Notes under the pieces: model-generated
Databases searched by the model: none
Seen by the model: the letters and a program-made list of their open reading frames with translations, nothing else
Told to the model about the DNA's origin: nothing
Shown here: piece after piece, positions 1,054 to 41,910 of the stretch
Layout: each line of letters starts with the position of its first letter
Position numbering within the stretch: position 1 is the stretch's first letter
Assembly: GCF_965363235.1 (NCBI RefSeq)
Contig: NC_134843.1
Coordinates: 62,349,865-62,413,864, forward strand
From: Mytilus galloprovincialis
Lineage: Eukaryota; Mollusca; Bivalvia; Mytilida; Mytilidae
Direction of reading: 5' to 3'
DNA: 64,000 nucleotides
Position numbers and translations under genes: made by a program

Positions 1054-1063
1054 ATAATTTTAA

Positions 1064-5711: not shown

Positions 5712-5939
5712 AGTATTCACAAACAAATGAACAGCTATAAAGGAAAGATGTTATACAATTACGATCCATCCACATATCACCAAGTGATGTAGCTTTTATA
5801 ACAATACAACGCTGAGTCGCAGACTCTGGTTGTCCAGGGTACCAGTTAAAATATGACATAGCGGTGCCGTCTTCTAATTTCCAACTTCCGTCTGGTTCCT
5901 CGTTACCTGCTATACATATTCTGACATGGGGTCTATCAG
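5710..5939 (-). CDS. Lectin gene exon 3: C-terminal half of the C-type lectin domain
   Basis: The acceptor is ACCTTTTCAG at 5949-5940. The peptide opens DRPHVRICIAGNE and includes WYPGQPES, QRCIVIK, MWMDRNC and YSCSFVCEY before TAA at 5712-5710. The spacing of C3, C4 and the last cysteines matches long-form lectin domains. The stop codon straddles the edge of the MITE at 5529-5711. Confidence 0.85.
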
Positions 5940-12213: not shown

Positions 12214-12282
12214 AATTTATGCAGATTTGATGGCAATTCCAATGGCTAGAAATGCACTATTAGATAAACTTCACAAACGTCG

Positions 12283-13933: not shown

Positions 13934-14000
13934 ATGGAGTTCATACACATTTTGTTAATTTTTTGCCTTGGTTTTCTTTCTTTTTTCTTGCTGGCAGCTG
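13934..14000 (+). CDS. Receptor exon 1: signal peptide
   Basis: ATGGAG preceded by AACAGA. It encodes MEFIHILLIFCLGFLSFFLL and AA, then a phase-1 donor G|GTGAGT at 14000/14001. The strongly hydrophobic core suits a secretory signal. The next phase-compatible exon found is at 20791. Confidence 0.75.
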
Positions 14001-20000: not shown

Positions 20001-23000
20001 GTAGTGAAGCTATGTATGTATAAGTCCAATAGTCAATAAATTGAGGTTGATTTGGTTTGAATAAAGCATTATCGAGAGCTACTTTGAGCTTAAAATTGAG
20101 TAATACGTCAGAGTTCATTGACTATATGAGCACGAGATCGTTACATTTAACAAAATACAACCAAACATTACAACTTCTTTTTTTTATTCTTCGTTTTCAA
20201 ACTAAGATTTTGTACCTACATGACTTTTTTAAGTGCTTCTGAAAACATTATAAATCGAATTTTTGCGGTTTTGAAGTCAGTTTACTCAATTTAGACATTT
20301 TTATGCTCTTTTTTCAAATCGTCTTTTGACTTTATTTGTTTTAAGTGTTTTTTTCTTTTCTTTTTTTTTTTTTTTTTTATCTCTAAGGATTTAAAAGGAA
20401 CACACGGTATGATCGATTTATATTTTCAATGCAATTTTTAAAAACATCTTTATTGAACCAAATTCCACGTGGTAAACTTGTCGTCATCCCTTTGAGAGTT
20501 TTATGGACGCCATCACGAAGAGGTTGACCGTTATGCCATCTGTGTTAAAATCGCGTCAAATTTATCTTATCCACAGAATGCTAACATTCTATGCGGAGAA
20601 GGATCTATTTACACATTCGAAGCACACAGGATCGGCATTAGCTTTCGGAGGGGTGCGTGTTGCATATAATTCCTTTTTGCCATGGCATCGACTTGTGAGT
20701 TCAGTTTCTTCCACCTCTGTGTTTTAAGATAGTTTATTTTAGAGTAATATAAATAAAATAAATAAATAGGAACATTTACTTAATTTACAGGTGCACTAGA
20801 TCCACCAAGAGATATCAGAACAAGTGTATTCGGAAATGATGTACATATCTCATGGACAGTTACACCAATACAAGGAGAAACTTTCTCGCGGATTTCACTT
20901 TTCGACTCAAGAAGAAAAATAGTAGCTATAGATTCTTCAAACAACTATACAGATGTGAAATTTCCAATCACAGAATACAAGATTGTCAATCTAACGAAAT
21001 GTTTAGATTATATTGTCAAAATAGAATACCCAGGTCGTGGATTGAGATCAGGCGTCACCGAAAAAAGGTTTTGGATGACAGGTAAGTTTATATGTCTCTG
21101 ACTTAATCAAATAAGACAATGTTGTTATATATCACTTAGAAAAGTGTGTGTTTTTTTTTATCTTCTTGCTTCATATACCTGTGGCAATGATATTAGCATA
21201 GGTGACTAAATTTTAATAATCCAATGTTTTGTTCAGTTTCCTTATAGCATAAATTCAATGCTATAAATGCTATATGTGTGCCAGTAAATGAAATATCAGA
21301 AATATCGAATGACCGAAGTAAAAGGACGAAAAATCAAAAAAAAAAAAAAAAACCTACGCAATAAGCAAAAATTATGCATATTTGTATGTCATTATACATC
21401 TTAATATAATAATTAGTTGAAGGATTGCCAATAATATTCTAAATACTTCAATAAGAGTCTAAAATAATTCATGAAAATAGTTCATGTACAGACAAACTTA
21501 CGTTTAAAATGTTGAAAACCGAATGCAAAAATAAACCAAAAAACCTATAAAATATCATTAAATTTATGAATTTTCAAGTTCAAAGTGTAAAGTTTGTCGT
21601 CAAGGTTTTTGACAGAAATATAAGGGGTGTATCATTGACCGGTGTGAACATACTTGGAAAAATATGTTTTTAAAGTTTAGATTTTGCAGATAAAAGTTGA
21701 CGTTTAAGACCAAAAATCATTTTTTTGTGGTATGATGTTAGCGTAATGTTTTAAAATGTTTAGTGCACAACTAAATTGTGTAAATACAAGATGTTTAACT
21801 GGAATCAAATATAGACACAGAGCAAACATGACATGTCAACTGCTCCATAAGTTATTTGAGGTTATTGAAGTCTGTGCACTGGCGTTGTCATGTTTTAACT
21901 ATCGTTGTGTTGACACATAGTGTGGTGAGATATTGAGACGATTAATACAGTCAATGTAATGCGTAGCTGTTTCTCGATTTATTTTTGTGGACAAAAAGTC
22001 ATGAAGATAACATCTCCTCGTTTATTGGTGTTTGGGTTTGTGGTTGAAACCAATTCGTCCAAAACTACGAAGATTGGACCTTCATCATGCAGTTCATTGC
22101 AAATAGTTTGTCGCATCTCCTCTAGAATCATGTCCTGCCATCTGCGACAGCAAAGAAATAGAATGAGAAAATGACGGTCTCTCGTTGATGATGATACAAT
22201 TTCTATCGTTGCAAAACAGTTTGAAATCGATGTCACCGGTGACAATTTGTAGGAACAGGACTCCTCACTCGGCAAAAGTATTGGTTAATCGGCAATAGAT
22301 AGTATCAGTACTTACGTTTTTTGTGATGTGTTCAGCTTATATTTTGGCAAATGACGCACCTTTCCTGTCGTGTCATCGCAGTACATGGTCATCCATTGAT
22401 AGTTACGTTCTCATATTCTTTCAATGTGCGAACATGGTAGAAATTAACGCGCAATTTAGACATACAATGTAACTTTTATTCACGGGAAACATGTCCAAAA
22501 TGACGCAAAATTCTGGTCTGTTTTAAATTTTATTTATTCAAAGAATTCATAAATTTTGCTTGACATCGGAGAAAATAACCACACACCCAGACTTAAATGT
22601 ATGTGTGCTCTACAACAATAAGTGAATTATATATCAAATATGTGCGGTAGCTTGAACTGATTCGATAATGAAAAATCTCATTTTGCTGTTTTCTGTGTAA
22701 TATATCTGTACGTTTTAAAGTACAATCAATTATTGTGTGGACAAATGTGTTCTCTTTTCAGCAGTGTAGTTTCTCTAAAATATATAAAACATCTTTCAAA
22801 CATTAAATACAAAGTCATATTACAAAAATACTATGATATTTTTAGAAGGCTTATTTCGTGTTAAAGATTTGATTTTTATTTCAGCAGGAATGAGCATACA
22901 GGGATCACTAGAGGGTTTCTGGGCCTAAATCACGAAACTTTTTTTACATATCTATAAAATAAAAATGTGTTTCATACACATACAATCAGTCAGTACTGTT

Positions 23001-26000
23001 GATTACGACATTTATTCATTGTTGCAATCTTCAAAAAGAAGACAGTTAACTACCAAGCATAGTCTATAAAGATTATGCAGCCTGTCTAGACTTTTATAAA
23101 ACTATTAATACATCTCAAGAAGAGCCAAATGTATCTGCGATCAATGTTTAAAAGTTGCCAGCAAGCAGTATTTATTTTCTTATTGCAGTATTGATTTATA
23201 CATTATATTTTTAGAAAACATTATTTTTGCTGACATCAATGAAAATGTAACCATATCATGGACGACCGGTATTAAAGAGTTTTTCAGTGTCATGTCGCCC
23301 TCTTCGTCAGTTATTTATGAGACAGATATCGACAGTATCATCGATAATTCTCAAATGGTAAACTACAAATTTGATACACGTACAAATGATTTGAAAGCCA
23401 TAAACATTACCGTTATTAATGTCAACAGCAAAGATGGTGGGCTATACAGAGCGGTGAAGAGTGAAATTGTGGATGGATGTGCTTTGTTAGTTGTAAAAGG
23501 TATGATAAAAACATTATTAGAATTCAGCTTACATATTTGTTAAATCAAGTAACAGATTGGGAAGACTTTCGTTTTAAGTGAGGTGTATATAATTGGGTTT
23601 CAACTCTGAACTAAAACAATCTACTGATTTTAGTTCGAGTGAACATTTTTTTTGATCGTATTCTTTTAGAAAATAATCAGTTATCTTCAGGTAACTGTGG
23701 TAATATATTTAGCAACTTCATATTTGACACTGTTATTAGCGTTCCGTTTGTTAGTTGCTTCTCTAAAGACGTACATATATTTTTATTCAGAATAAAAGAA
23801 ATTAGAGTAAAAATCAAATGTATATGTGCGTAATATGCATTTTGTAATCTTTACATTGTAATAATCTTTTCCTTCCATTCATCTTCTTAATAGCTAAACA
23901 CGTTTTTTTTCTTTCTTATTTTCAATTGGTTAAAACGCCTTCATCATGTTCATATCACTGTCAACGTAGCATGCTATGAATGATCAGCTGCCCATTGTTT
24001 GCAATCAGTCTACAATTAGCAGATGCTTTTAGATAACTATAATGTATTTGTTCATCAATATTTTAGGAAAACCAATTAAACCAACTTTAACCCTTCAACC
24101 TGAGCATCCATTCGTTGGTGATGATATCACAATTACATGCTCTTCAACTGTACAACGATGGCCTGCAGGGTTCAAAACTTCAAACCTGAGATATGCATTT
24201 GATGGGAACTTTAGAGGAGTTATTAAGAACAATACGGTTACGACTCACACACTTACCAAAGCGGATAACGGAACATACATACATTGTCAGGCAACTGACG
24301 ATCTTGGAATAATATCGAACATGAGTAATACCGTTACATTAGATCCGTATTGTAAGTTGAAATATAAGTCTTGATAACAGCTGCATTGTTCTCGAGAAGT
24401 TGTTTTTGTGTATCCTTTTTGCGTTACACATTTTTTAAATATTAGCAGAAAATGTTGCGTGGTTAAATAAAATATGAAACTGATACACAATAAAACTAAT
24501 CACATTAACGGTATCCATTTTACTTCAAAAGCTGTTTTCGTGGTTGATTGATTTGGGTTTAACGGTCACTTTTACCACTATAGTTCTATTTTTTGGCGGT
24601 CAGTTTTCATTGATGGCGGAATGCCCGGAAAGAACCACAGACCTTTGGTAGAAAAATTGACAATCCTAGTCAATTAAGATTAGAATTGAGTGCACCTACC
24701 CACGTGCGGGATTCAAACTAGGAACCCTCGTTTTGACAGAATTGTGATGCATTAGTTTGACTACTTAGACCACTCTACCACCGCTTTATAAAATAGTGGT
24801 ATGTCCGCTCTTGACATATAAGATAAAACAAAACACACGCAATATATTATTTTGTTATTTTCATACAAGAAAAATAATAATGATAACCTGCATCCATTTC
24901 AAACATTATTATAAGTAAAGTTAGCATTAGGTAAAAAAATATAATTTTTTATAGAAATTTCAAATCAACATTATTGTTTAACTGTAATGGGATGCATGAG
25001 TTCATTAAGTATTTAAAATTTACATATACTTTTACTACTTCGATCAGTTATAAAGCACAATTATTTGATGACCAGCAAGTAGAGCATTAAAAAAAAGTAG
25101 AGACTTTTTGAAAAATACTGTGTGTTACATTTAGAGCACCATGGTATATAATCGGTTATGGCCATGTTTCTGTCACTTTGTACTTTTCTTTTCAATCGTT
25201 GAGGTGAATTTCGAATTTCGATTTTCCGCATTTTTGTACCGTTACGGTAATGTATCTTCATCTTCAATGTATGAATAGCTCTCTTGTACTTATCTTGTTT
25301 AAAGTTTGAATAAATGAACATATTTGTAAATACATTTTTAACTGGACTAAAAGGTTTTTTAAAATCTTGTAGATGGTCCTAATCAAATTGTGCTGGAACC
25401 TGCGAACACAGTTTTAAAAGTCCTAGAAGGAACTACATTAGGCCCTATACAGTGTACTGCAACCTGCTATCCTGGATGCAAATACAATTGGACACAAAAT
25501 TGGTCAGGACAATATACACCTGTTCCGAGCGAATTCATATCGAATCAAAACCAAAATATCACAGTTCCAAACATTCAGAGGAACCAGTCTGGAGCCTACC
25601 TTTGTAAGGTAGATCATTCTGAAGCTAAAAGACGTCAAGGAAATGAATTAAACATATCAGTGGATGTACAGTGTAAGTATTAACATTAATATCCCTGATT
25701 TCTATTTTATTGATATATTCTAGTCGATGTGTAATAACATATAAAGAGTCTTTTTATTTCGTAATATGAACTCTTTTTTTCATTGTAAAATAGCTTTTAA
25801 ATGCCATGTTTGTCCCCACCAAGCTTACCACTTACTTGTATCATTGAAATTAAAAGCGAATTGTTCTCAGGGAAAGCTTAGAGAGTATCAGTTCGCAGTG
25901 CAAGGTTTTTGAGATATTTATTTGGTGCAGGACACCTGGTACCACATTACATGTTATTATCATTGCAGATGGTCCTGAGGACGTTGTGTTGCAACCGAAG

Positions 26001-29000
26001 ATCACAGTTATCAATATATTGGAAGGAACTACTTTAGGTCCTATAAATTGTACTGCAACCTGCAATCCAAGATGTAAATATGATTGGAAACAAAATTTGA
26101 CAGGACATTTTCGACCAGTCCCAGCAGAATTTATTTCAAACCAAAATCAGACTCTTACTATTCCAGGAATAAAGAGAGCTCAGACCGGAACATTCAGTTG
26201 TCGCGTAGATCATTCTGAATCTAAAAGACATAACTCAACAAATTTCTCTGTGAATGTACAATGTAAGTATAAGCAGTGAAACGTTGAGTATGAGTAGCTA
26301 AAATTGATAACCATAAAACAAAATTGAAAAAACAACCTGAACAACTTTCAGCTTAAAAAACATTTATCAAGTGACAAAACCTTTTAAGTTCATTACTTAC
26401 ACACCAATGTCATGGCTTAAATAGTAATTCTAAGGTATACTGTTAATAGAAATTAACATTATATTTGGTCATCCAGAGTTAAATATTTCCATATATCTAG
26501 AAGTTGAGCCAAACTATACAAGTCATTTAAATATACAGGAGATTCCGAATATCAAAGTCCGAATTGTAGATTATTGGAATTAACGTACTGTAAATACATC
26601 GCTCCAAATTGCTCCAATAGTTTTTAGAATTTTTAAAAAAAAAAAGTGTTTCAGTAGAAAGTACTTGTAACAATTTCTAGAAGACTGGAGTTGTATACTC
26701 CTGAGAACACATCAAATTGAGAATTAAAACGGGGATGTATCAAAAAAGACACCAATCCGACCCATGATTAGAAAACAGCTCAAGACAATCACTGGTTCTG
26801 CAACGCAGCGAGACAATCCCGCACCCAGAGGCGGGCGTCAGCTGGATTAATTCCAAATAGCTCCAAATAAAAGAAAAATAAGAACCAAAATTAGGTCTCT
26901 TGAGAAATTACTTAGTAAAAATAAAGTTTTAAACTCCTTAGAACACATAGTCTATGCTTAGTCAAATTAGTTTTCGATTTTAACTCTCGTCCACCTTATT
27001 GATTTGTATCACAACTATAAACATGAAAAAGTAGCAATAATAGTAGACATAAATTTGTTAATCCGATCATCCTTACATCTTAATCCATGGAAAACAAATA
27101 TTTTCTCTCTGCAAATGTGCAGTTCGGTGAGCATCATTGCAAGTTTTTTACTTATTTACATTGCAGATGGCCCTGACAATGTGAAATTGGTGCCTAACAA
27201 CCAGATTATCAATGTTATAGAGGGAAGTACATTAGGCCCTTTATATTGTACTGCCACCTGCAATCCGGGATGTATATACAACTGGAAACAAAATTGGACG
27301 GAACGTTTTAGACCCGTCCCAGAAGAATTCATTTCAAACAAAAACCAAACTCTTACTGTTCCAGTAATGAAGAGGAATCAGACTGGAGAATACAGTTGTC
27401 ACGCGGGTAATACTAAATCTAAACGACACGAAACAACATTTATATCAGTGAATGTACTGTGTAAGTAAAGACTTTCAAAGTGTAATTATTAAACGCTTGA
27501 ATAGTTACCCAAAAAAAAGGGGGGGAAAAAAAGAAAAGAAAAGAACATGGATATCGTTATAACAGACGCATCATCATCATTTACCAACTATTTTTTTAGC
27601 TTAATTAACGATAAAAGAAAAACAGCTAATACATGATTATATCATATTTGGTCATCTGTTGTTAAATACTTTCAGAATTGTAGAATTTAAGCTTTAATAA
27701 CTAAGTCATGAACGTAATGAGGAGTGTCTGGATTTAAAAAAAGTCATGTGAATTGTAGCAATTGTGATGAGTTTAAAAAAAAGAAGATCTACGTATACAT
27801 TATTTTGTTGCATCAGTTGGCAATTCAACGTTTCACTTTTTTATCATTGTAGATGGTCCTGAAGATGTTGTGTTGAAACCAAATAATACAATTATCTATA
27901 TACAAGAAGGATTTACATTAGGTCCTGTAAACTGTAAAGCAATCTGCAATCCGGGATGCATATACAATTGGAATCAAAATTGGACAGGACGTTATCAACC
28001 CGTTCCAGAAAAATTCATTTCAAATCAAAACCAGACTCTAACTATTCAAGGAATAATGGGGAATCAGTCAGGAGCCTACAGTTGTCATGTTGATCATTAT
28101 GATAGCAAACGACAAATGAGAATAGAATTATTAGTCAATGTGAAAAGTAAGTGTTAACGGTAAAGTATAAGTTATTAGACGCAAATAATGTGATTTGTGA
28201 AGTGACAAAACCTTGCTTACTTACATATATATTATATACCTTATGGCTTAATCCTTTATTATGAGGAAAACTGCTAACAATAGATCTACATACATTATAT
28301 TTGGTCATCTAGTGTAAAGTATTGTCCAGATTATACGCCTAAATATACAAGTCATTTAAATATCTATGAGTTAACGAATTTGAAAGTTAGAATCGTAGAG
28401 TTAATTCAAAATAATTAGCTTAAACTTTATGTGCAACATTTTGCTCTCGACACAGACTTAATAATTGCTATGCAATCAACAAAAGTTCAAACATATAGTA
28501 TATAAATATCATTTACGTACTTTAACCCATATTTATTAAATTATGTTCCATTTTGGTCCCTTGTGAAGAGTTGTATCATAGGCAATCATACCACTTCTTC
28601 ATATTTTTATATTTAAGTCGAAGTGTTTAGGTTACCCTTTATAGGGGTATTCCCCTCTTATTTACTAGTATTTGAAATCAGTATTACTCCTCAACCATAC
28701 AAGCGAATGACCTGGAATCTTTCGATTTGAAATCACTGACTTATGATCTGAGGTCAATGTCAAATGTCAAATGTCAAATTTGACATTCTAGATATTGACC
28801 TTTGCGATAAATTCATACTGGTTCATTATAAAACTATTAGGGATTTTGCATCAGTTTGGTAGACATATAACCTTTAAAAAGGTCAACCGGAATAGACATT
28901 TTGTTAACCGAAAGTAGCCATTTTCTTACTAATTTGATGAGAAAGTGCATAGAAGCCTTATATGTTTAGTAGCAAGTTATATGAACCAGAGGGGACATCT

Positions 29001-32000: not shown

Positions 32001-35000
32001 TACATATATAAGAAAATGACTGTACCAAGTCAGGAATATGACAGTTGATATCAATTCGTTTGATGTGTTTGAGCTTTTGATTTTATTTTGCCATTTGATT
32101 ACGGACTTTCCGTTTTAAATTTTCCTCTGAGTTTGGTATATTTGTTATTTTACTTTTAGGGGTATTTAATGAAGTGGTTGCAGTTATTTTGCAGTTTGTT
32201 ACATTTGTTTATCGGTTACTTTTTCTCACAAAAAGAGGCCGTTAGACTTTTTAGTTTCAATTGTTTCACAATTGTCATATCAAGGCCTCTTAATGCAGAC
32301 TCAATGGGATAAGTTTTTCTCATTGTTAAGGGCCTACCGTGATCTATATTGGTTTCAATCAGCGTCAGTTTGGAAATTGTTGAAAATTGTGTCATTTGCA
32401 ATCATACTACATCTCTTAATTTGATATTATGATCTTTCAATTCTCCCTAATATAGGATATAGAAATAGATTTTAAATTTCGTTAATGTATAATGTTTAAT
32501 GTTCGTGTAGATACATGAATAAATATATATATAATAATGGGACTTTTTTTTTATACATATTAAAAAGTTTATAATAAACCAAACAACTTTTAACATCGCT
32601 ATTTGTTTATTAGACATTTGGCATAATTGAATTAAAGACCCTGCTATGTTCTGTGGTCATATGTTGATCATGATTTTTATTAAGTTAAAATATATTAGAT
32701 TTTTTTAATAGGCTTTTGATAAAAAATGTATGTTGCATAAATTATTTATAGAAAAATCACTTGATTTTCTTACCCCTTAACTGTATTTGTATGCGTTATC
32801 AGTCATTCACATCGTTGTAATAATCTTATTTCCCCCCATGAAACACGACGGGTAACAGTAGTGGAATAAAAGTAGTTGAAATTTCTAAACCCATGAGTTT
32901 AATCTCAGCTCAAAGATTTATGTGTGGTAATAGCAAGATTGTGATTTCTTTGCTTGGTATTCTCTTTTTGTCATTGAACTCCGGCATCCTTTACCAAAAA
33001 AAAGTAACTCACATCCGCGAAATAAAACAATTAGGATGAATGGGGCGTTCATCACCAATCAATCAATCAATATTTTTGTCATGTTGTTTTTTTGTCTTTT
33101 TGCGACTTATGTTTCTTTAATGGTAGTTTCTACCATCTGTCTGTTTCTGGGTTTTTTTATAATGGCCCGCAAGTGCTCGTTTTCAACTGTTTACAGAAAC
33201 ATATTCAGGCAGGTCTTCATACGAATTTGAAGCGTATTCCTGTGAAAGTTTAAGCGTAGATTTAAAGTTTTATTTATTCATCTGTTCTTTCTATTATTTC
33301 AGATCGAGAAGGGACAAATAGATCAGCTCCGTATGTATGAAATCAATGTCTCTATAGCATATGCTCAGTAGATAACCTAATTTACAAATTTACAAATTTT
33401 CATTGACATTTTAGAAGTTAATGCTTTAAATTTTTATTTGAAAAATGATGATGATGATTATTATTATTATTATTATTATTATTATCGGCACCCTGACCCT
33501 GTTGATTCATGCTTGTCTGCATTAGGTTGGTTTTATCTGACCGGGAATCGATCCGTAAATCTTCTGAATGTGTGACTCGAGGCTACTTTTATAGTCCTTT
33601 GAGGTGGTTCTGGTGTGTTAATCTATACTTTTCTACAAAAGGAAATGTTGTCTAGCTTCCTTCAAATTTTTATCCAAAGTATAAATTCCTCTGTTATATA
33701 TACCTTTATCGCTTTAGGTGGTTGCGTTTGTACCATTGTCTTTTTTAATCATGTTAATAATGACCGAATAATTGCATACTTTTTAATATGTAAATTTCTA
33801 ATTTACTACAAATGATTTTACTTTAGGGTAAATCCTGCGAACTTTGGATTTTCTTCCGTATGCGCTGTGGTTTTCTTCCCTATGTACTGTTATTAAGTGT
33901 TATGCACTTTTTATCTATACTTTCAATCTCTTCGTTCAATATAAACAAGGAATCGTGGTTATCGCTTATTAACTTCCTTTTCATAGAATGTCTTTCTCGT
34001 TTTCGTGACTCACACAGATGCCAAAAAATGTTAACAGAAAAGGTTGATAACTTTCATCATTGACCTTAGACCTAGACTTATAGGCAAGTGCCCTGTTTGC
34101 CACTCTTACGACTGAGCAATACAGAAAGGGTAGGCAATAAGATTTAAAATGACTTGAAATCTCATGGCATGTTAGGTTACTCTAAAGTAAGGGATTCTTT
34201 AACATATGTCACACAAGTATTACCTATTATATTAAACTGTTATTTATAATACTTGATAGAACAATAGGTATGCTTACAGCAGCAAGTATATATAGCCGGC
34301 ATTATCCAACATTTTTTATGTGTTTATCTTACAATTTCATAATTCGTTTTTTTTCTTCAAGAAGATCAAATAAAAAAATAATTTCTTTTCAAGTTCATTA
34401 ACAACTATGGAGAATAACGACTTACGAAACATTTTAGAAACTTTGTAAGACCAAATGCATATCGGATTTGTTTTATAGAGCTGGGGTGTTTACAGATTTA
34501 CAGAGAGGCAATTCGGCGTTTGCAAATGATTATTCTGGTCTGCAGTCTTTTACTGGTATGCATGCTTTATTAGAAATCTATTTTAAGGTGGTACAGTAGA
34601 GGGACATAACTCTGTAAATATCAGCTGGACGTTTTAATTACGTTCAATTTTAAGAAAATATTAGTAATCAAAATTAGTGTTTGTCAAACTGCTATATATC
34701 CAATGAAATTTTTTCCAATAAATAGTGGGGTTCATTTTTTTTAAATTGTCATATTTTTGTCAAAGAGTCGAAGACCTGCATTGTTAAAACGTTTTACATC
34801 AGGTAAACATATAAAACGAAGGCAAAAAAACAAAAACAAATACAAACTAAACTTATGATATATATCATCAGCTAATAGACAACAAATGTAAAGTAATTCG
34901 CTGTTTAATTGAACGTTGTTTGTATTCACGGCGTATTTTATGATAAACAAGTCTTATATATATAACAAAATATCGATGTGTTCTTAAAGTACTGCTGGCC

Positions 35001-38000
35001 TAATCTATCCATACACACAGGATATGAAATTATGTTTCGAATCCAACATATCACCCTATACATAGTTCACCTTCTCTTCTCAACAAAGGCTGTTAAGCCA
35101 ACAAAATAGATCTGTTAACCAGCAATTATTTGTTATATGTCGCCTATGATGTTGAAACCAGTACATATGAAATATGCATAAATAATTTCGGTAATACACG
35201 TTTCTTAATTTTCAGCATCAGTGCCTGTTCAGGACCACAGGTATATATAAAACAAATATTGAATACTTCTTTTTGTAATTTTATAGGGTTTTAAAAGCGT
35301 TGACCGTGCGCATCTTTTTAGAATGAAGCGCTTCCGCGCTTCATACAAAATGTACTTCGGTCAACGCGTTTACACCCCAATGAAGTTACAAAAAGAAGCA
35401 TTCAATTCTTAAGTGTTAACTTTTGATGACAGAGTCCTTTTATACAATACTGCGTAGGAGTATAATATGGTAATGAATGTTTGATATTAAGGATGTTCGC
35501 TTAACATGTTTTGGGATTTTTGTCAGATTTTCAGAATCCTCTGGTTTTATCCATTTAAATACCTTAAAAAAATTTGCCCATTGACCGTTATTTTTCTTTT
35601 TATAAATCTTTTATATGTATAGTTATAAGCCATCTGTTAAAGTCTTATAAAATCTTTGTTATTTTTTAATAGTGTTTGACTTGTCAATGATAAAGCTATG
35701 AAAAATCTAGAGAGAACATTTTCCCACCAAAATGCTATTGACTAATATCTCGAAAACAAGCACATTGACCTTAGGCTACATATTTTTTTTTGCTTTCATG
35801 GTTCCTTCATTAAACCCCTACCAATATATACTAGTGTTATGAAAAGCTTGTTATTTTGAAACTGAGTAGCGAACTTCCTTAAAATGAAATCATGAATTAA
35901 TTATTTAATCATAATTTATTATTCAAATACGGCAGTACCAATCTTGTTTTATCTTATTTACAACGTTATAACTGTCGCTATAAAAATAATAGTTATTAGC
36001 TTGCATGAAAAGTGCATTAAACGCAATCGGTAAAACAATTGATTCTTGGCAGTTATGGGCAAGCAATGTGTGATCAGATGATTGAAGCTATTAATTTTCT
36101 CCATGAAAATATTTCTGTACGTTTCCGCAACAGAGTTTATCGACAGGTTGTGTGTATTCTTATGGGCACCAATTGTCTCCCTTTAATAGCAGACTTGTAC
36201 TTGTACTGTTATGAATCACAGTGTATAACCAAACTCAGTAAAGACTAGTATAAATTTCATTTAATTGATCAATTCAAAAACACTTTCCGTTATCTTGATT
36301 ATATTCTTTCGTTAAATAATCAACAGTTTACTAAATATACTGCCAACAATTACCCATAGGAACTTGCTTTTAATAAATCAAACATCAATCAGTATTATTT
36401 GTTCTTTCCTTGTTTTAGCTATTTGAGTTTTACAAAAGAATCTGTTCTACAAAGGGACGATTTTTCGTTACCGATTGTTAATTTTCCTTTTTAAAATGGT
36501 GATGTTCCTTTGGCACAATCTTACGGTGTTTATATAACACAACTTGTTCTCTATGCCCGTGTCTGTTGTAACGTTATGGATTTTATAAATATTAAGATTT
36601 GATTTTGAAGTTGGTTGTACCTGTGGAAAACTAATTTCAATCGGGATTGCACATCCTAATTTTTACGGAGATGTTGTTTACCGAGGTCGGAAATTTAGAA
36701 ATGATCCAGGAAAACTTTTAAATAAACATTCTCAACCTTTCGTAACTAAATTGGTTTTCAGATCGGCAAAATAATATCTTGTTTTTAAACAATACTCTGA
36801 AGGTTTATTGTACAATGTGAGCTAGCAATCTTTTGACATATCTTCACATATCTAAATTACTGTATTAAGAATTACTTCCAATTGGCCGTTTCAGAAACTA
36901 AAGCATGATGATGGGTAAATTAGTTTTTCTTACCCCAAAATGAAAATAACGTCACGTCACTGGTTAAATTTCAATTGTTTATGACACTTTTCACCAATCA
37001 GGACGTTTTGATGTACAATTTTGAAAATATTACCGAGGATGCATTAGATTGTGAAACGGCGAATTAATCATTGATATTTGGTGTTTATATATATCGTTCA
37101 CAATGGCAATAGTAACCTTCTACATGTATACAGGTCTTAGGATTTTTATTTCACACACTGAGCATACCATTTTTCTGATATATCAAACAAGTGTGTAATA
37201 ACTTTGCCCCATATCGGATATAAGTTTAGCTTTGAAATTGTTTTCTTGACATTATTTTTCTCTTGTCTTTTTTGTTCTGTCTTAATTATTTAATCGCTGT
37301 TAAAATATCTGTTGAATAGTACATTTGGTTATGCATCTGATGATTGTGGAAAAACAGCTGGAGATGATGGATATATAGATATTGAAGACACGAGAAAAAA
37401 CGGTGAGAAATTATAATAAAATAATAATTCTTATACAGGAACTCTTTATTAGACGCAACTGGATAAGCAATATAAATAAAGCATACTTTATTTAGATATC
37501 TGACCTATTTAACAAGTGTGTACACACACTACAGTTCGAACGTTTAAGTTAAGTTGAAACTATTATCTGGTATAATTGAGATTTACCAAATAAGACAAAA
37601 TTTAATCATCTTTTACATCTGTAGGTAAAATAGTTATCAAAGGTACCAGCATTATAATTTAGTACGCCAGACGTGCGTTTCGTCTACATAAGACTCATCA
37701 GTGACGCTCATATTAAAATATTTATACAGCCAAAACAAGTTCAAAGCTGAAGATCCAAAATCCCATAAGGTTGTGCCGAATACGGCTAAGGTCATTTATG
37801 CTTCGGATAAGGAAATCCTTAGTTTTTCGAAAAAAATCCAAGTTTTATGATTATTTATTGATTTATTGATTATAATTGCAAATAATATTTATTTTCTATT
37901 AGTATGTATAAACAAATTCGGCAAATAAATAAACTTTGGTAATTTGCAGCTTTAATATCTCCTCAAGACCACAGGTATTTATAAAAATATTATGATATTC

Positions 38001-41000
38001 AATATTCATTTTCCAAATAGTGTATAATCATCCTATTATTTAAAAATTTACAGCAATAATTATATTGTTCTCTATAAAATACAGAATGGTAGCTTTTAAG
38101 AATAGTATTGTCAAAACACTCGGGAACACATCAAGAATGTCTGCATGCATTGGCAATAAAGTAAAGCAAACTATGGGACCAATTTTACTATACGAAAGTT
38201 AAGATGAAAAAAATATATTAAAGTATAAATACTTTTTTAAAGCATGGAGATCACACAGGCAAATTAGCTTGTTGTATTTAATTTTGCATCTGCATTTATT
38301 CGATAGCTCTTGGCTTTACAATGTTGATAACTATGTTGAAACGAAAATATTTATTGGCCTAATGTTCTATTTGCAGCATAAATTATTGGCCAATGTTTCT
38401 ATATGCTCCTCATAGTTCATATTCCCATTTATACTATCCAATGTCCTAACTCAATAACATGTGGGACATCCCAGGTCGCAATTACACGATAAATAGATTG
38501 TGGATGAGCATGGACATCTAGGTTTACAAATTTCATTAGACTTCATCAAACCATTAAGATTACCGGCAATTTGATAAAAAAAATCATCACCAGTTCACAT
38601 AGATTTTACCACTGATTATCAACATTCAACTGAAGCAAATCCAGCAGCAATCAACTTACCTGCAAAAACCATCTTCTTTCAACAGATCGTCTGGTGTGTT
38701 GAAAATATATGTTTTTGTGTTCGGTGGATTGATATTGCAACAGACAATCTGTATCCCAATTATTCTTGTTTGTTCGTCCGTACTGGACTATTTTTTTTTG
38801 TATTGTTATAGAACAGAATTTGTACATAACTCATGCAATTTTATGGTCACCATCACTAATTGTTTCACCTATACGATGTGTCAGTATCACAACTCTACAG
38901 ACATCTTTTTGTGATTAAAGATCTTTATATACAAAGGTTGTCGTCTGATTTAACTAATTAACCTTCTTTTTTTCCTTCATATTCATGATTTTTACATTTC
39001 AAATTTACTGTGGATTCGCATGGCGGGTGATGAACTCATGACAGGAGACGCTTACCACCTTATCTACCCACCCACACTTCTATTGTTTTGTTATGAATGG
39101 ACCGTTAGTTTTGATCCTTTTGCAGGTTTACAAGAGTTAATTGTATTGGTAATGCCCTTCGCAATAGAGAGGCCTGGCGTTTTGGCAATTATTGAATGCT
39201 GTTTTCATCTTTTCGTTTTTACCACGTATCAATTGTTCAATTACCAATTTCAATTTAAAGTATGATAGCATTTTGGTGTCGTCTGATGTTTCTTTCCCGT
39301 GGTTCGCCATTTTTATTATTTGCAAAAATAGCTGATCTCGATAAAGATTTTAGTATAAAAACCCGAATTTGATACGAAACGTTTGAGTATTCCCCCATTC
39401 AAACATGCATGCTTTCTTGTTTTAATGTATACAAGATATTTCTTGATATTCTTAAAATGTCAATGAAAATGTAACGCCTATGTCATTAATAGGTAAGTAC
39501 AAATAGAGCACTATTTATGATTTAAACAAACAATATGTTTTTAAACAACGTGTCACACTGATTAAAATCAGTGTGACACGTTGTTTCATCAATTATTAAA
39601 GTGTAACATTTAATGAACATGTATCAACATAATTAACTATACTCTATCACGTACTTAATTTTCGGATCTACAAGACAGTTTCTCCTTTTTGACAATAATT
39701 TGACGGTTTATTGTAAAATTTGATTAGGATTTTTCTAGTTATCGATGCTCCCACTGTATGTATTACTCTGCGTTTATCTTCATAACATCACAACAGTAGG
39801 TAGGGTAACACTTCAAACGGTATCAGAATTAAATTGTGTTTGGAATTATTTTCCTTGAACTGTTTTTTTATGCAAAACCTAGGGGCATTATATTTTTTGG
39901 TGTGCTCGTCCGTTTGTCCGTCCGTCCATCTGTCCCGCTTCAGGTTAGTTTTTTGTGTCAAGATTCAGGTTTAAAGTTTTTGGTCAAGGTAGTTTTTGAT
40001 GAAGTTGAAGTTGAATTGTAAATCCAAATTAGAGTTATTACCGAAATTTCACGGTCAACATAATATAGAAAATGATAGTGAGAGTGAGGCATCCGTGTAC
40101 TATGGACGCATTCTTGTTTTTCTCATCTATCTTTGCTGTTTCTTTGTTGAAACGCTGCAGATTATTTCTTTAGCAGTACATTAAGCCATGCATATGATGT
40201 GTTTGCATCAGAAGCTGATGATAACGGATACATAGATTTTACCGACAATAAAGGAAATGGTGAGACATTAATTGTTATATATTATTAAAAGGGATACGTT
40301 ATATGATATTTTATGTTTAAGTTAAGTTTGTATTTTAATCTTGAAAATGTTAGAAAACCTAAGTATATAAGTAAGTGACCACAGCCATTGCACCAGAAAA
40401 TAAACTGTTACTACTCTTCTACTCTAGATTCTGATAGTCCCATCCTAGAAAATATTCTAAAAGTAAGTTCTACTGTTGGACAGTTTTAGGTCAAGAATAG
40501 GGTAGTAAGGTCTTTTCATATTTTATTTTTGAACTTGTTTATTTGATTTGCATTACTTTATATATTTAGAAGATTAGTAAATTGTGTTCTGAAATAATTT
40601 AAACAAATTATTCTATAATTACGTTATAATTTGTTTTATGATTTTTTTTATTTTTTTTATTTTGTATTATTTTCGTAATGAAGTACTTTATTTCTCTATA
40701 ATTGTTGTACGGAAGCATATTCCTTAAATTACTACAATATACTAAACCACATATGTATCAGTTTTTAAGATTTTGTAATGTTGTAAACAATGTTCAGTTA
40801 TCTAATTTAATATTGTAGATACATTTACGTGTTATGCACTTCTTTAACGGTTAAAAGTTACAAAGAAAATTTAGTTTTAACAATTAACTGAAACATATTT
40901 TTTTCAACTGTTTTTGGCATTATTTAAATCAGAATAACTCACGCACAGACATACATCCAAGTATCACAAAGTTAAGTGCAAAGAAAATATTTTAATACTA

Positions 41001-41653
41001 GGAAAAGATAGAATTTGTTTTGATTTTAAGTTCTGGTATTTTATTCTGTAATTTAAAATATGTTGCACAGGAAAGTCCGGTTTCTATTCCCTTACTTCCT
41101 TACAGACAAGAACTGTTCTAAATCATTATCAGAGATCCGCTTATTATGTCATTTAGAACAGTTCTACCATAAAATAGATATTGACAATGATATACTACCA
41201 AAATTGTAGATAATTTGTCCATAGAACAGATAACAGATCTATCTGAGAAACGTTCAGACAGTTTTAACTGAGAACAGTTGGTTTTGGGGTTGAACTCTAC
41301 TTGAACAGTAAAGATCGATTTTATGACAGATTAGTCTTACAGTTCTAAAGAGATGTAAGAACTGAGCCAAACTGTATATGTTTTTCAAATCCTATAAAGA
41401 TTGAACTAACGTCATATTCTTCGACTGACATCGTAACACTATCAAAGTGCCCGCACAAAGTTCATATAATAAAACACGTGAATAAACTGAATAACCGATA
41501 TGCAACTGAAAAAAATATGAAAACATAAATTATGACTAATTTTTAAAAATAAATAATTATATTATCTTTGTTGGACGTCATAATGTGAATGAAACACTAT
41601 TTTCAGGTCAGGAATATATCACGATGAACCAGACGGTGTACACTAATATGTAG
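13934..41653 (+). CDS. Multi-Ig single-pass receptor with repeated tyrosine cassettes, 16 exons, 869 aa
   Basis: The exons are 13934-14000, 20791-21081, 23215-23499, 24067-24351, 25373-25672, 25969-26262, 27167-27460, 27853-28146, 30813-30944, 33303-33330, 34479-34555, 35216-35240, 37320-37402, 37950-37974, 40177-40259 and 41607-41653 (2610 bases). Every junction is GT/AG and the joined frame is open to TAG. Layout: signal peptide 1-22, FN3-like 23-119, Ig-like without core cysteines 120-214, Ig 215-309, four Ig domains with CxxxCxxxC at 310-703, membrane helix about 712-738, and a tail of about 130 residues. The tail has Y775, Y809 and Y845 in repeated cassettes, then Y858 and Y866 in two YxxM motifs. 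Many NxS/T sites are in the ectodomain. A cell-surface recognition receptor signalling through tyrosine phosphorylation is the inferred role. I do not know a named orthologue. Confidence 0.8.
14001..14480 (+). other. Start of receptor intron 1 (intron spans 14001-20790)
   Basis: No feature recognised here. Further on, the intron holds a palindrome, a Penelope-like copy, family B and C repeats, a nested MITE and a reverse-transcriptase tail. Confidence 0.5.
14481..14640. repeat. Long near-perfect palindrome
   Basis: Left arm 14481-14540 begins AGAATAACTAATCGAAGAAT and right arm 14580-14640 ends with its complement. About 40 bases lie between, containing the smaller palindrome ATGCGCGTAGCGCAT. 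It may be a foldback MITE. Confidence 0.8.
14745..15780 (-). mobile_element. Penelope-like/other reverse-transcriptase element copy 1, broken by an in-frame TAG
   Basis: The minus strand encodes the palm motifs GIPMGTNCAPLLADLFLYYY and FRYIDDVLSL (YIDD catalytic box). After these comes a long C-terminal part (SYLDLHLEI, FPIVNFPFLSSNIPAAPAYG, LVDRYGITVSQM). A single TAG at 15476-15474 interrupts the frame; the equivalent codon at about 47255 encodes tyrosine. A second break lies near 15725. The non-coding 3' tail runs to about 14745. The class is judged from the motif style only. Confidence 0.7.
16040..16215 (+). repeat. Family C repeat, fuller copy
   Basis: Contains CTGTACCAAGTCAGGAATAT, GATTTTGCCATGTGATTATG and CCTCTAAGTTCAGTATTTTT. 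Confidence 0.65.
16216..16868. other. Intron 1 stretch, unclassified
   Basis: Holds a short perfect palindrome AGTCAGAATTTTCTGACT at 16439-16456 directly after AAGGTAGAACTAC, possibly an element end. No partner end was found. Confidence 0.3.
16869..17061 (+). repeat. Family B repeat, left part of an interrupted tandem pair
   Basis: Runs from GATGAGTCTGATGTAGACGA through GGTCGATGCCACTGCTGGTG to ATATGGTCATTTTTA, where a MITE interrupts it. The continuation is at 17639-17880. Confidence 0.75.
17062..17638. mobile_element. MITE nested inside family B
   Basis: The left end AAAAGGAGTAG and the right end CTACTCCTTT are inverted, with a second inner pair, AATGAAAGTGGCCGCAT (17291) against ATGCGGCCACTTTCATT (17390). 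The flanks join into an uninterrupted family B sequence when it is removed (compare 52981-53025 on the minus strand). Confidence 0.75.
17639..17880 (+). repeat. Family B repeat, right part
   Basis: Continues TTACAAAACTTTGAATTTTT, then GCGTCACTGATGAGTCTTAT and CGAAACGAGCGTCTGGCGTA, i.e. enters a second family B unit. Confidence 0.75.
17881..20490. other. Remainder of receptor intron 1, nothing recognised
   Basis: AT-rich with a poly(T) tract at 20361-20378. No domain-bearing exon was found in either strand. Confidence 0.4.
20495..20740 (+). mobile_element. 3' tail fragment of the reverse-transcriptase element
   Basis: Shares CGCCATCACGA and GGTTGACCGTTATG with the 58451-58480 copy, then GGGTGCGTGTTGCATATAAT, a decayed form of the element's tail. 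Confidence 0.5.
20791..21081 (+). CDS. Receptor exon 2: FN3-like module
   Basis: Acceptor TAATTTACAG (20781-20790) and donor G|GTAAGT (21081/21082); phase 1 at both ends. The 96 full codons include PPRDIRTSVFGNDVHISW near the start and LTKCLDYIVKIEYPG near the end. This fits an FN3 B-strand tryptophan and a C-terminal YxVxI pattern. The FN3 call is moderate; a divergent Ig fold is the alternative. Confidence 0.75.
21082..23214 (+). other. Receptor intron 2
   Basis: A minus-strand open frame of 98 codons at 21979-22275 (with VVLDELVSTTNPNTNKRGD) has no domain I recognise. It may be a transposon scrap. Confidence 0.4.
23215..23499 (+). CDS. Receptor exon 3: Ig-like module lacking the core cysteines
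   Basis: Acceptor ATATTTTTAG, donor G|GTATGA. It encodes ENVTISW where a B-strand cysteine is normally found, and NITVINVNSKDGGLYRAV where the F strand would read DxGxYxC. The fold is Ig V/I-like by pattern, but neither cysteine is present. Several NxT/S sites. Confidence 0.75.
23500..24066 (+). other. Receptor intron 3
   Basis: Nothing recognised. Confidence 0.5.
24067..24351 (+). CDS. Receptor exon 4: canonical Ig domain
   Basis: Acceptor ATATTTTAG, donor T|GTAAGT. It has KPTLTLQPEHPFVGDDITIT followed by the B-strand cysteine, and NGTYIHCQATD with the F-strand cysteine. The end, DPYY after splicing to exon 5 and followed by GP, is a frequent linker between tandem Ig domains. Confidence 0.85.
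24352..25372 (+). other. Receptor intron 4
   Basis: Contains a minus-strand tRNA-derived SINE (24540-24790). No exon seen in the rest. Confidence 0.5.
24540..24790 (-). mobile_element. tRNA-derived SINE
   Basis: On the minus strand it reads GGTAGAGTGGTCTAAG (A-box-like) and GGTTCCTAGTTTGAATCCC (B-box-like with an insertion), spaced as in a tRNA head. A unique body follows, ending in an AATC-type tail. The head points away from the receptor's direction of transcription. Confidence 0.65.
25373..25672 (+). CDS. Receptor exon 5: Ig domain with CxxxCxxxC cluster, copy 1
   Basis: Phase 1 both ends (TTGTAG acceptor, GTAAGT donor). Core: EGTTLGPIQCTATCYPGCKY, PVPSEFISNQNQN and SGAYLCKVD. The B-strand cysteine is followed by two more at +4 and +8, giving four cysteines with the F strand. 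Confidence 0.9.
25969..26262 (+). CDS. Receptor exon 6: CxxxCxxxC Ig domain, copy 2
   Basis: Acceptor ATCATTGCAG, donor T|GTAAGT. Contains GPINCTATCNPRCKYDW, FRPVPAEFISNQNQT and TGTFSCRVDHSESKR. Very close to copy 1 in both DNA and protein. Confidence 0.9.
26263..27166 (+). other. Receptor intron 6, partly homologous to introns 7 and 8
   Basis: 26373-26575 matches parts of 28200-28405 (GTGACAAAACCTT, ATATTTGGTCATC, TACAAGTCATTTAAATAT). A decayed minus-strand family A-like piece may lie near 26725-26830. Confidence 0.5.
27167..27460 (+). CDS. Receptor exon 7: CxxxCxxxC Ig domain, copy 3
   Basis: Acceptor ACATTGCAG, donor T|GTAAGT. Contains GPLYCTATCNPGCIYNW, PVPEEFISNKNQT and TGEYSCHAG. The frame is also open upstream through the intron, which would give a false ATG at about 27004. 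Confidence 0.9.
27853..28146 (+). CDS. Receptor exon 8: CxxxCxxxC Ig domain, copy 4 (membrane-proximal)
   Basis: Acceptor ATTGTAG, donor A|GTAAGT. Contains GPVNCKAICNPGCIYNW, PVPEKFISNQNQT and SGAYSCHVD. It joins directly in phase to the membrane exon. Confidence 0.9.
28147..29727 (+). other. First part of receptor intron 8
   Basis: Holds intron sequence duplicated from intron 6 (28200-28405), a 3' end of family A (28543-28608), a small ATGTCAA repeat at 28757-28780 and a perfect TGACGTCA at about 29303. No exon was seen. Confidence 0.45.
28543..28608 (+). repeat. Family A repeat, 3' end only
   Basis: CATTTTGGTCCCTTGTGAAG, GCAATCATACCACTTCTTC. Confidence 0.55.
29728..29910. mobile_element. 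MITE copy 2 (same family as 5529-5711)
   Basis: AATTCGCTGTACCAGAATCT at the left and AAGGCGAATT at the right; the interior is the inverse complement of the 5529 copy (ACCAAAACG, CATTTTGGCGTAC). Confidence 0.7.
30301..30567. mobile_element. TTAA-flanked MITE, right end lost
   Basis: Starts TTAA|GGAAGTTGGCT and shares CATGTTTTGGGATTTTTGTC and GAATCCTCTGGTTTTAT with the complete copy at 35491-35878. Confidence 0.6.
30813..30944 (+). CDS. Receptor exon 9: transmembrane helix
   Basis: Acceptor TACATTTCAG, donor G|GTATGT. It encodes RQTNAKYS, then about 27 hydrophobic residues (LIMLLSIGLGG, CVLVLLVVIVVVVSF), then the basic stop-transfer FNRRNRGN. This fixes a type I topology, with the Ig domains outside. 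Confidence 0.9.
30945..32019 (+). other. First part of receptor intron 9
   Basis: A degenerate minus-strand family A piece at 31315-31420 and a direct repeat of AAGGTCATTCGGAGG at about 31709-31748. Nothing else. Confidence 0.4.
32020..32160 (+). repeat. Family C repeat
   Basis: CTGTACCAAGTCAGGAATAT, GATTACGGACTTTCCG. Confidence 0.65.
32160..32430 (+). repeat. Family A repeat
   Basis: AAGAGGCCGTTAGACTTTTT, CAAGGCCTCTTAATGCAGAC, CAATCATACTACATCTC; adjoins a family C copy, as at 4268-4700. Confidence 0.6.
33303..33330 (+). CDS. Receptor exon 10: first half of tail cassette 1
   Basis: Micro-exon of 28 bases between TTATTTCAG and CC|GTATGT; enters in phase 1 and leaves in phase 2. Encodes (D)REGTNRSA(P). 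Confidence 0.7.
33331..34478 (+). other. Receptor intron 10
   Basis: An (ATT)n microsatellite at 33457-33484 and otherwise unrecognised sequence. Confidence 0.5.
33457..33484. repeat. (ATT)n microsatellite
   Basis: Simple trinucleotide run preceded by (GAT)n. Confidence 0.9.
34479..34555 (+). CDS. Receptor exon 11: second half of tail cassette 1 (YSGL)
   Basis: 77 bases, acceptor TTTTATAG, donor G|GTATGC, phase 2 in and phase 1 out. Encodes (P)AGVFTDLQRG, NSAFANDYSGLQSFT. The tyrosine is cassette residue 19, with leucine at +3. Confidence 0.8.
35216..35240 (+). CDS. Receptor exon 12: first half of tail cassette 2
   Basis: 25-base micro-exon between TTTTCAG and AG|GTATAT. Encodes (A)SVPVQDH(S). 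It is the twin of exon 14. Confidence 0.8.
35258..35406. repeat. Foldback just inside receptor intron 12
   Basis: Outer arms ATTGAATACTTCTTTTTGTA and TACAAAAAGAAGCATTCAAT, middle arms GCGTTGACCG and CGGTCAACGC, and the central hairpin ATGAAGCGC-TTCC-GCGCTTCAT (35323-35344). Confidence 0.8.
35491..35878. mobile_element. TTAA-flanked MITE, complete copy
   Basis: GGATGTTCGCT at the left against AGCGAACTTCC at the right, flanked by TTAA on both sides (35487-35490 and 35879-35882). TTAA targets are typical of piggyBac-type mobilisation. A partial copy is at 30301. Confidence 0.7.
36030..36780 (+). mobile_element. Reverse-transcriptase element copy, strongly decayed
   Basis: Plus-strand pieces: RFRNRVYRQVVCILMGTNCL, PLIADLYLYCYE, FRYLDYILSLNN (YIDD box changed to YLDY) and DDFSLPIVNFPF, with several stops and frameshifts. 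Same family as 14745-15780, more diverged. Lies in receptor intron 12. Confidence 0.65.
36890..37065. mobile_element. MITE copy 3 (same family as 5529-5711)
   Basis: AATTGGCCGTTTCAGAAACT at the left, GTGAAACGGCGAATT at the right; the interior matches 5529-5711 in the same orientation. Confidence 0.8.
37320..37402 (+). CDS. Receptor exon 13: second half of tail cassette 2 (YIDI)
   Basis: 83 bases, acceptor GTTGAATAG, donor G|GTGAGA. Encodes (S)TFGYASDDCG, KTAGDDGYIDIEDTRKN. The YIDI tyrosine is cassette residue 19. Confidence 0.85.
37625..37850 (-). repeat. Family B repeat
   Basis: GTACGCCAGACGTGCGTTTC, AAGACTCATCAGTGACGCTC, minus orientation, in receptor intron 13. Confidence 0.7.
37950..37974 (+). 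CDS. Receptor exon 14: first half of tail cassette 3
   Basis: 25 bases, between AATTTGCAG and AG|GTATTT, the same size and phases as exon 12. Encodes (A)LISPQDH(S). Confidence 0.8.
37975..38689 (+). other. First part of receptor intron 14
   Basis: Nothing recognised. Confidence 0.4.
38690..38830 (+). mobile_element. Reverse-transcriptase palm fragment, very decayed
   Basis: FGGLILQQTICIPI and LDYFFLYCYRTEF resemble the palm region of the other copies. Confidence 0.4.
39543..39586. repeat. Perfect 21-bp hairpin
   Basis: Arms AAACAACGTGTCACACTGAT(T) and the exact complement, with a 2-base AA centre. Confidence 0.9.
39880..40115 (+). repeat. Dispersed bivalve-type repeat with CGTCCGTCC core
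   Basis: GTCCGTTTGTCCGTCCGTCC, GCTTCAGGTTAGTTTTTTGT, GGTCAAGGTAGTTTTTGATG, AAAATGATAGTGAGAGTGAG. I recognise this layout from other bivalve loci. No second copy in the window. Confidence 0.5.
40177..40259 (+). CDS. Receptor exon 15: second half of tail cassette 3 (YIDF)
   Basis: 83 bases, acceptor TTTAGCAG, donor G|GTGAGA, the twin of exon 13. Encodes (S)TLSHAYDVFA, SEADDNGYIDFTDNKGN; tyrosine at cassette residue 19. Confidence 0.85.
40428..40462 (+). other. Candidate alternative cassette exon of the receptor
   Basis: 35 bases between a good pyrimidine-rich acceptor (CTACTCTTCTACTCTAG) and a strong donor (AAAA|GTAAGTT). It enters in phase 1, encoding DSDSPILENILK, and leaves in phase 0. Including it would read exon 16 in another frame, with a TGA after VRNISR, and so remove both YxxM motifs. 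Confidence 0.3.
40463..41606 (+). other. Remainder of receptor intron 15
   Basis: AT-rich; the AGAACAGTT/AACTGTTCT words recurring at 41095-41345 suggest a decayed repeat. No exon recognised. Confidence 0.4.
41607..41653 (+). CDS. Receptor exon 16: terminal double YxxM motif
   Basis: Acceptor TATTTTCAG. With the preceding G it encodes GQEYITMNQTVYTNM and then TAG. YITM and YTNM are both YxxM motifs (PI3K p85 SH2 consensus). YTNM also has N at +2 (Grb2 SH2 consensus), like the YMNM of CD28. Confidence 0.8.
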
Positions 41654-41880
41654 ATTTAGCCATTAGTTAGAATAAGAGATTCCGGAATTGTATATATTTC
41701 TCTTTTATCTGTTAAACCACATCTCTGTCATCCATTTTGAATGATAATATCATCTTTTATTTTCTTTATAATGAATTTAGTATTGTTTTAAGTTCAATGT
41801 ATGAAAGGTGTAATTTTGTAGCTGATGCTACTAACATGCTTTGGTAAAACTTGGTAAACCATGCTTTTTTTCTAATTAAT

Positions 41881-41886
41881 ATTAAA
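41881..41886 (+). terminator. Possible poly(A) signal (ATTAAA) of the receptor gene
   Basis: ATTAAA about 230 bases after the stop codon, followed by a run of about 14 A at 41897. No AATAAA lies nearer. Confidence 0.25.
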
Positions 41887-41910
41887 TGCTGTATACCAAA
41901 AAAAAAAAAA

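Follow-up and report, generated by a model that had tools for sequence, protein, structure and literature searches.

On the forward strand of the window (the whole stretch of 64,000 nucleotides of Mytilus galloprovincialis DNA analysed here, corresponding to C6:62349865-62413864), sixteen exons between positions 13934 and 41653 were joined into a single-frame gene rebuilt from the DNA (Table 1). The reading frame starts with an ATG at 13934, contains no internal stop codon, ends with the stop codon at 41653, and codes for 870 residues, one more than the 869 given in a preliminary description of the locus. All 15 introns have GT...AG borders, with phase 1 at the first nine junctions and phases 2 and 1 alternating thereafter, which bears out the earlier statement that sixteen exons join in one frame. 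The chance of a single 95-codon stretch of this composition staying open was estimated at about 5e-4, and AATAAA occurs 560 nt past the stop codon. The predicted protein comprises a signal peptide, an FN3 domain, a cysteine-poor Ig-like module, five Pfam-supported Ig domains, a membrane helix and a tail with seven tyrosines; the proposal of one receptor-type gene with FN3 first, multiple Ig modules, a membrane helix and a tyrosine-rich tail thus holds for the rebuilt model.

Table 1. Exons of the predicted receptor gene, with positions in the window
Feature	Position	Strand	Support
Exon 1: start codon and signal peptide	13934..14000	+	19-residue hydropathy up to 2.64
Exon 2: FN3 domain, outermost	20791..21081	+	Paralogue profile; Pfam fn3; paralogue splice phase
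Exon 3: probable V-like Ig module lacking the canonical cysteines of strands B and F	23215..23499	+	Weak profile support
Exon 4: Ig domain	24067..24351	+	Pfam; paralogue splice phase
Exon 5: Ig domain, tandem copy 1	25373..25672	+	Pfam; dN/dS; cysteine pattern
Exon 6: Ig domain, tandem copy 2	25969..26262	+	Pfam; dN/dS; cysteine pattern
Exon 7: Ig domain, tandem copy 3	27167..27460	+	Pfam; dN/dS; cysteine pattern
Exon 8: Ig domain, tandem copy 4	27853..28146	+	Pfam; dN/dS; cysteine pattern
Exon 9: membrane helix and stop-transfer residues	30813..30944	+	Hydropathy 3.07; same-phase hydrophobic exon in paralogue K
Exon 10: 28-nt microexon, phase 1-2	33303..33330	+	Splice signals; phase
Exon 11: tyrosine exon (DYSGL), phase 2-1	34479..34555	+	Splice signals; phase
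Exon 12: 25-nt microexon (SVPVQDH), phase 1-2	35216..35240	+	Duplicate of exon 14
Exon 13: tyrosine exon (DGYIDI), phase 2-1	37320..37402	+	Duplicate of exon 15
Exon 14: 25-nt microexon (LISPQDH), phase 1-2	37950..37974	+	Duplicate of exon 12
Exon 15: tyrosine exon (AYDVF, NGYIDF), phase 2-1	40174..40259	+	Duplicate of exon 13; C8 copy
Exon 16: last exon, EYITM and VYTNM, stop codon	41607..41653	+	C8 copy

Together, the sixteen exons make up one plausible receptor gene. Support for this model is mainly comparative, from paralogues; its least supported parts are exons 10 and 11, for which a search of the window and the fetched loci returned no relatives. A first exon resembling exon 1 (16 aa, 75%, E 0.001) was found in locus L016, where it has the same GTGAGT donor and phase and sits about 0.95 kb before a relative of exon 2 at C6:62539949. 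The latter, which has another exon 2 behind it, may be a remnant.

Domains of the predicted protein

A Pfam scan of the protein identified five Ig domains in exons 4-8; exon 8 by itself matched Ig_3 at 8.2e-5, under the curated cut-off. The six Ig-like modules of the preliminary description thus become five Pfam-backed domains plus the weakly Ig-like exon 3. As single exons, exons 2 and 3 gave stray sub-cut-off matches (POLQ_helical, 0.025, and Phi29 SSB, 0.0058, respectively). The view that exon 2 codes for no known domain was dropped, as a profile built from 11 family members matched the FN3 domains of titin (best, E 6.7e-10), fibronectin, neogenin and gp130; nine of the 11 members also matched Pfam fn3. 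The family profile of exon 3 matched NCAM2 at 9.6e-4, and a V-set match was obtained for one of nine family members. D-x-G-x-Y, the signature of the Ig F strand, is kept in 8/9 aligned members, and the usual Ig cysteine pair is absent from exon 3. Comparison with the exon 5-8 family by hhalign yielded a probability of 0.5% for the exon 3 family and of 0.05% for the exon 2 family. AlphaFold modelling of exon 3 as a single sequence resulted in a pLDDT of 39; since the Pfam-clear Ig exons 5-8, modelled together, were likewise poor (pLDDT 48), the exon 3 model is uninformative either way. In view of the weak profile support and the hhalign value, exon 3 was not accepted as a proven Ig domain; it probably codes for a V-like module.

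Exons 5-8 represent one Ig exon in four tandem copies (50-61% identical), which have two additional cysteines between the first cysteine and the tryptophan. Among them, dN (0.23-0.38) is below dS (0.65-0.87), which suggests coding constraint, reflecting history as much as the present.

Hydropathy indicated a single signal peptide and, at about residues 712-737, a single membrane helix. The tail consists of 132 residues starting from NRRNRG and is closed by two YxxM motifs, EYITM and VYTNM. YxxM is the pattern recognised by class IA PI3K p85, and YTN that of Grb2; both YITM and YTNM match YxxM, and the YTN of YTNM additionally matches the Grb2 pattern. A pattern search for the ITIM consensus [SIVL]xYxx[ILV], with T also allowed in the first position, had no hit in the 132-residue tail. 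Nor did the tail contain an ITAM, defined as two Yxx[LI] motifs 6-12 residues apart: YSGL and YIDI alone fit the half-motif, about 30 residues apart by hand count. With canonical ITIM and ITAM both absent, the tail would more likely be of an activating or adaptor type than of the classic inhibitory kind.

Similarity extending into the flanks links exon 12 with exon 14 (73% over 85 bp, E 1.9e-9) and exon 13 with exon 15 (67% over 162 bp, E 8.6e-9), so that a microexon plus tyrosine exon, running from phase 1 to phase 1 as a unit, was duplicated as a two-exon tail cassette. A genome search with exon 13 returned exon 13 itself and no other match; exon 15 has one relative, at C8:56770628-56770711 (-; loci L049/L050). 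It belongs to a copy, about 3.6 kb in length and about 83% identical, of window positions 39048-42707, introns included. In this copy, exons 15 and 16 retain their splice sites, GYIDF and the two YxxM motifs; none of the other window-gene exons was found in the 20 kb read around it. In exons 15-16, 120/133 sites are identical with no indel, as against 2652/3201 in the surrounding DNA, which has 1612 gap columns (exons versus rest, Fisher p 0.024). The difference points to coding constraint on these two exons.

A family of modular relatives

The genome searched was the same 1.385 Gb assembly of 331 contigs. The general Ig_3 model gave 2376 candidates, and all of the 150 scored were above the cut-off (150/150). 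Ig exons as such are thus common in this genome, and it is specific exon types and their order that set the family apart. In protein searches of the genome with single exons, the window being included in each count, exon 2 matched 12 places, exon 3 matched 11 (two of which are pieces of one broken copy), exon 4 matched 18, and exon 6 matched 34. An order map of 73 rows was drawn up from matches to exon 2 (12/12), exon 3 (10/11), exon 4 (18/18), exon 6 (25/34) and a second FN3 exon (8/58). Left out were, for exon 3, the second piece of the broken copy; for exon 6, one second piece together with eight weaker Ig matches, all of them on C6 but beyond the mapped loci; and, for the second FN3, one broken copy and 49 weaker matches. 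Two of these weaker FN3 matches, C2:101795297 and C2:101807928, are situated where the order would place them, downstream of the C2 relatives. In every mapped locus, with rows grouped into genes by judgement, the modules follow the order FN3, V-like, Ig, Ig and (second FN3) on the same strand; modules are sometimes missing, never out of order.

Seven gene-like loci, A (the window gene) to G, are arranged head to tail on the + strand over about 420 kb (C6:62.37-62.79 Mb). No match to exon 2 was found in locus G, and none to exon 3 in the C6 loci at 62.42, 62.47 and 62.51 Mb. Further family loci are located at C6:53.05-53.12 (two), C6:72.85, C5:65.45 and C5:64.34-64.36 (one without stops, one broken), and weaker ones on C2, C9 and at C6:1.24. 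Loci A-K and M have one to four matches each to the exon-5-type Ig. A neighbouring member at C6:62662981-62679368 contains the pair of exon 4 and Ig three times in tandem. Strong general Ig_3 matches also occur just outside the cluster, at C6:62818568-62831311 and C6:63870740-63874037 (+).

AG/GT borders and phase 1-1 were found for 10/11 other copies of exon 2 (in the eleventh, L020, the expected donor lies beyond the scanned range), for 8/8 other unbroken copies of exon 3, and for exon 4 in 8/8 loci scanned, window included (8 of the 18 matches). Two relatives are broken: C5:64344162-64344439, an exon 3 relative with an internal stop beside the member without stops, and C5:65496721, with four stops. 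The mapped family, i.e. the window gene and at least ten full or partial relatives, shows varying domains, domains gained or lost, and preservation of the frame. The window gene is a member of a modular, partly tandem receptor family in which Ig copies, the V-like module and the second FN3 are gained and lost; the receptor gene model of the preliminary description stands, but the gene is not an isolated one.

Paralogues K (C5:64.35) and E (C6:62.58) differ from the window gene in the membrane-proximal part. Following the exon-5-type Ig, both have two weakly Ig-like exons (Pfam I-set 0.04; Ig_3 0.014) and an FN3 exon, that of K matching Pfam fn3 at 1.6e-11. In K, the FN3 is followed by a hydrophobic exon of phase 1-1 resembling exon 9 (E 6e-4). 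The second FN3 occurs in eight places in seven family loci; the genome search did not find it at the window gene, its neighbours B, C and D, or the C6:72.85 locus. Since no counterpart of the membrane-proximal exons of E and K was found on the + strand of the window between 13 and 42 kb (best E 1.4), the window gene seems to have lost this part or never to have had it, and carries four copies of one Ig exon instead. Downstream in K, a tyrosine exon (2-1) and a 25-nt microexon (1-2) resemble exons 11-15; as a selection made by eye among 41 mechanical candidates, they carry little weight. The 15 kb fetched for E yielded no clear membrane exon; a hydrophobic stretch at position 12406 of the piece was not accepted as one.

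Divergence along the ectodomain was compared in the five genes which have all three of exons 2, 3 and 4 (A, E, F, I and K), i.e. in ten pairs. The sequences loaded were seven of exon 2, eight of exon 3 and six of exon 4, gene F being represented by the first of its three exon 4 copies. Mean amino-acid identity rose from 43% (exon 2) through 53% (exon 3) to 62% (exon 4), and mean pN fell from 0.340 through 0.276 to 0.225, in ten pairs which are not independent. Mean pS, partly saturated near 0.47, was 0.475, 0.477 and 0.467 in the same order. For gene E, the exon 2 at 62547853 was paired with the exon 3 at 62582701, 35 kb away, which is possibly a wrong pairing. The outermost FN3 is accordingly the fastest-diverging module of the three, at equal synonymous divergence. 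As pN is below pS throughout, relaxed or diversifying change is indicated, and positive selection is unproven. The sequence itself shows the gene model, all domains but exon 3, the family with its modularity, and this gradient.

Comparison with known receptors and proposed function

The best PDB match of the window protein is CEA (chain 1e07_A, E 3.9e-38, best stretch residues 347-684). CEACAMs are mammalian proteins with an N-terminal IgV domain followed by C2 Ig domains, whereas the window gene has FN3 first, and the match rests on the repeated Ig domains. Ig and FN3 domains and membrane attachment are shared with Dscam, nephrin and contactin, but the order in the window gene differs, and genes of this type are not known to form tandem variable clusters. 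The fibrinogen domain of FREPs is absent from the window protein (Pfam scan, E up to 1). Siglecs differ in their N-terminal V-set, the N-terminal domain here being FN3, and the ITIM of Siglecs, LILRB and oyster IgIT is missing from the tail, as is the correctly spaced motif pair of ITAM receptors. In the oyster, CgSiglec-1 is described as having two I-set Ig domains (PMC5877582).

By description, the closest published kind would be the clusters of Ig-FN3-TM genes of the pearl oyster, in which the number of Ig domains varies, a C-terminal FN3 and a TM are frequent, and copy number differs between the two haplotypes of one animal (PMC9646362). Clustering is common to both (here seven loci), and so are PF13927 Ig domains in varying number. 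The C-terminal FN3 and TM are not universal there; the window gene has a TM with no membrane-proximal FN3 found, and its FN3 is N-terminal. Paralogue E has the membrane-proximal FN3, and K, which has both FN3 and TM exon, looks like the pearl-oyster kind on this comparison. The relevant passages of that paper make no mention of a cysteine-poor V-like module or of repeated tyrosine cassettes. No mollusc receptor of exactly the present layout was found in the open-licence PMC literature, as represented by titles and abstract openings. Given the similar cluster in print, the earlier claim that no named family has this layout may hold for the exact layout alone.

According to a review, oyster CgIgIT2 combines five Ig domains with a TM and an ITAM and is credited with the recognition of LPS and Vibrio splendidus; the review also cites a paper on inhibitory IgIT signalling (PMC11999971). 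The window gene resembles it in coming from a bivalve and in having five Ig domains, one TM and a tail with tyrosine motifs, but the text on CgIgIT2 mentions no FN3 or V-like module, and the ITAM there contrasts with the lack of canonical ITAM and ITIM here. In a study on Pinna, multi-Ig 'hemicentin-like' proteins are called abundant in bivalves and largely of unknown function (PMC13093298). An expression atlas of another mussel's transcriptome lists Ig among the commonest domains, enriched in gill, mantle rim and muscle, and reports FN3 as enriched in muscle (PMC5549309); these patterns are no pointer to immunity.

With a probability of about 0.55, we propose that the window gene codes for a surface recognition receptor of a tandemly duplicated Ig-superfamily family, signalling via SH2 proteins. 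The product would be a type I membrane receptor whose fast-diverging tip of FN3 and V-like module most likely binds a changing ligand, such as a microbial surface or a self marker, with the row of Ig domains as a stalk. Src/Syk-type kinases would phosphorylate the tail tyrosines, on which SH2 proteins could dock: the terminal YITM/YTNM pair might perhaps recruit class IA PI3K p85, its YTN also Grb2, and the GYIDI/GYIDF cassettes may bind other SH2 or PTB adaptors. All ectodomain exons are in phase 1-1, and so is each two-exon tail cassette as a unit; modules can thus be gained and lost with the frame intact, and such changes may underlie the differences among family members. Expression, surface location, the kinases and binding partners, and a role in immunity rather than in adhesion alone are all inferred. 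The proposal has an analogy in the oyster receptor said to sense microbes and to signal via a tyrosine motif (PMC11999971). Points against it are that the best PDB matches after CEA and its relatives are adhesion proteins, e.g. contactins, and that the tail has neither a canonical ITIM nor a correctly spaced ITAM pair.

A cell-adhesion molecule of the nephrin, contactin or hemicentin type, acting in tissue building or the nervous system and expanded without an immune role, is possible, though we consider it rather unlikely. Expanded nephrin/contactin/hemicentin-like genes of Pinna have been tied to adhesion (PMC13093298), and the enrichment of Ig and FN3 in mussel muscle (PMC5549309) would fit this as well. 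So would the PDB matches to contactins, Robo and NCAM and the order Ig, FN3, membrane exon in paralogue K, but not the tandem YxxM motifs of the tail. Tandem clustering, modules gained and lost, and a faster-changing tip are unusual for conserved adhesion genes and likewise speak against this reading.

That the model wrongly joins two genes, one for the ectodomain and one for membrane helix and tail, or misses further exons between exons 8 and 9, is quite improbable. Exons 10 and 11 without relatives in the window and the fetched loci, the extra Ig-like and FN3 exons of E and K at the same place, and the recurrence of exons 15-16 on C8 without the others point that way. Its probability stays low because phase is continuous across the gene and because a membrane exon in the same 1-1 phase comes after the Ig and FN3 exons of K; relatives of the extra exons were not found on the + strand at 13-42 kb, and the similar tail exons of K add little, having been chosen by eye. 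Still less credit is given to the idea that the gene is decaying or unexpressed, with an intact sequence that is not used: the broken relatives on C5 and a reverse-transcriptase ORF piece inside intron 1 would be in keeping with decay, but 870 codons without stop or frame break, 15 intact introns, and dN below dS in exons 5-8, though the last reflects history as much as the present, speak against it.

In a bolder version of the recognition receptor, which we regard as doubtful, the cluster would serve bivalves as a complex for recognising microbes or telling self from non-self, with the outermost FN3, not an Ig V domain, as its variable element. The ligand end (Ig copies, V-like module, second FN3) and the signalling end (tyrosine cassettes) would both be shuffled as frame-neutral exon units, and individuals would carry different receptor sets. 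For the question of how a diverse receptor repertoire is maintained in animals lacking antibodies, the mapped family makes expression, haplotype variation and ligand binding directly testable. The frame-neutral shuffling of modules and the fast FN3 tip would seem worth a specialist's time, function being the inferred part.

Other features of the window

In intron 1, a reverse-transcriptase ORF piece lies at 15048-15746 (-); RVT_1 matched positions 15474-15746 at 5.6e-4, below cut-off, and 15048-15473 had no Pfam match. An ORF at 46813-47154 (-) is, by eye, much like the one at 15048. At 46-1675 (+), a tyrosine-recombinase-like ORF (Phage_integrase, 6.8e-8) is followed by a GDSL/SGNH-like ORF (1.3e-4, below cut-off), a pairing found in some tyrosine-recombinase mobile elements. 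C-type lectin pieces are present at 5710-6912 (-; Lectin_C, 2e-5, the second piece at 0.0034 being below cut-off), and an ORF at 11815-12216 (-) combines a hydrophobic stretch near its start with a PAN domain (5.9e-5). Downstream of the receptor gene, a C1q domain is encoded at 53990-54373 (-; 6.1e-8), and two thrombospondin type 1 ORFs are located at 55370-56255 (-; 1.8e-12 and 1.4e-6).
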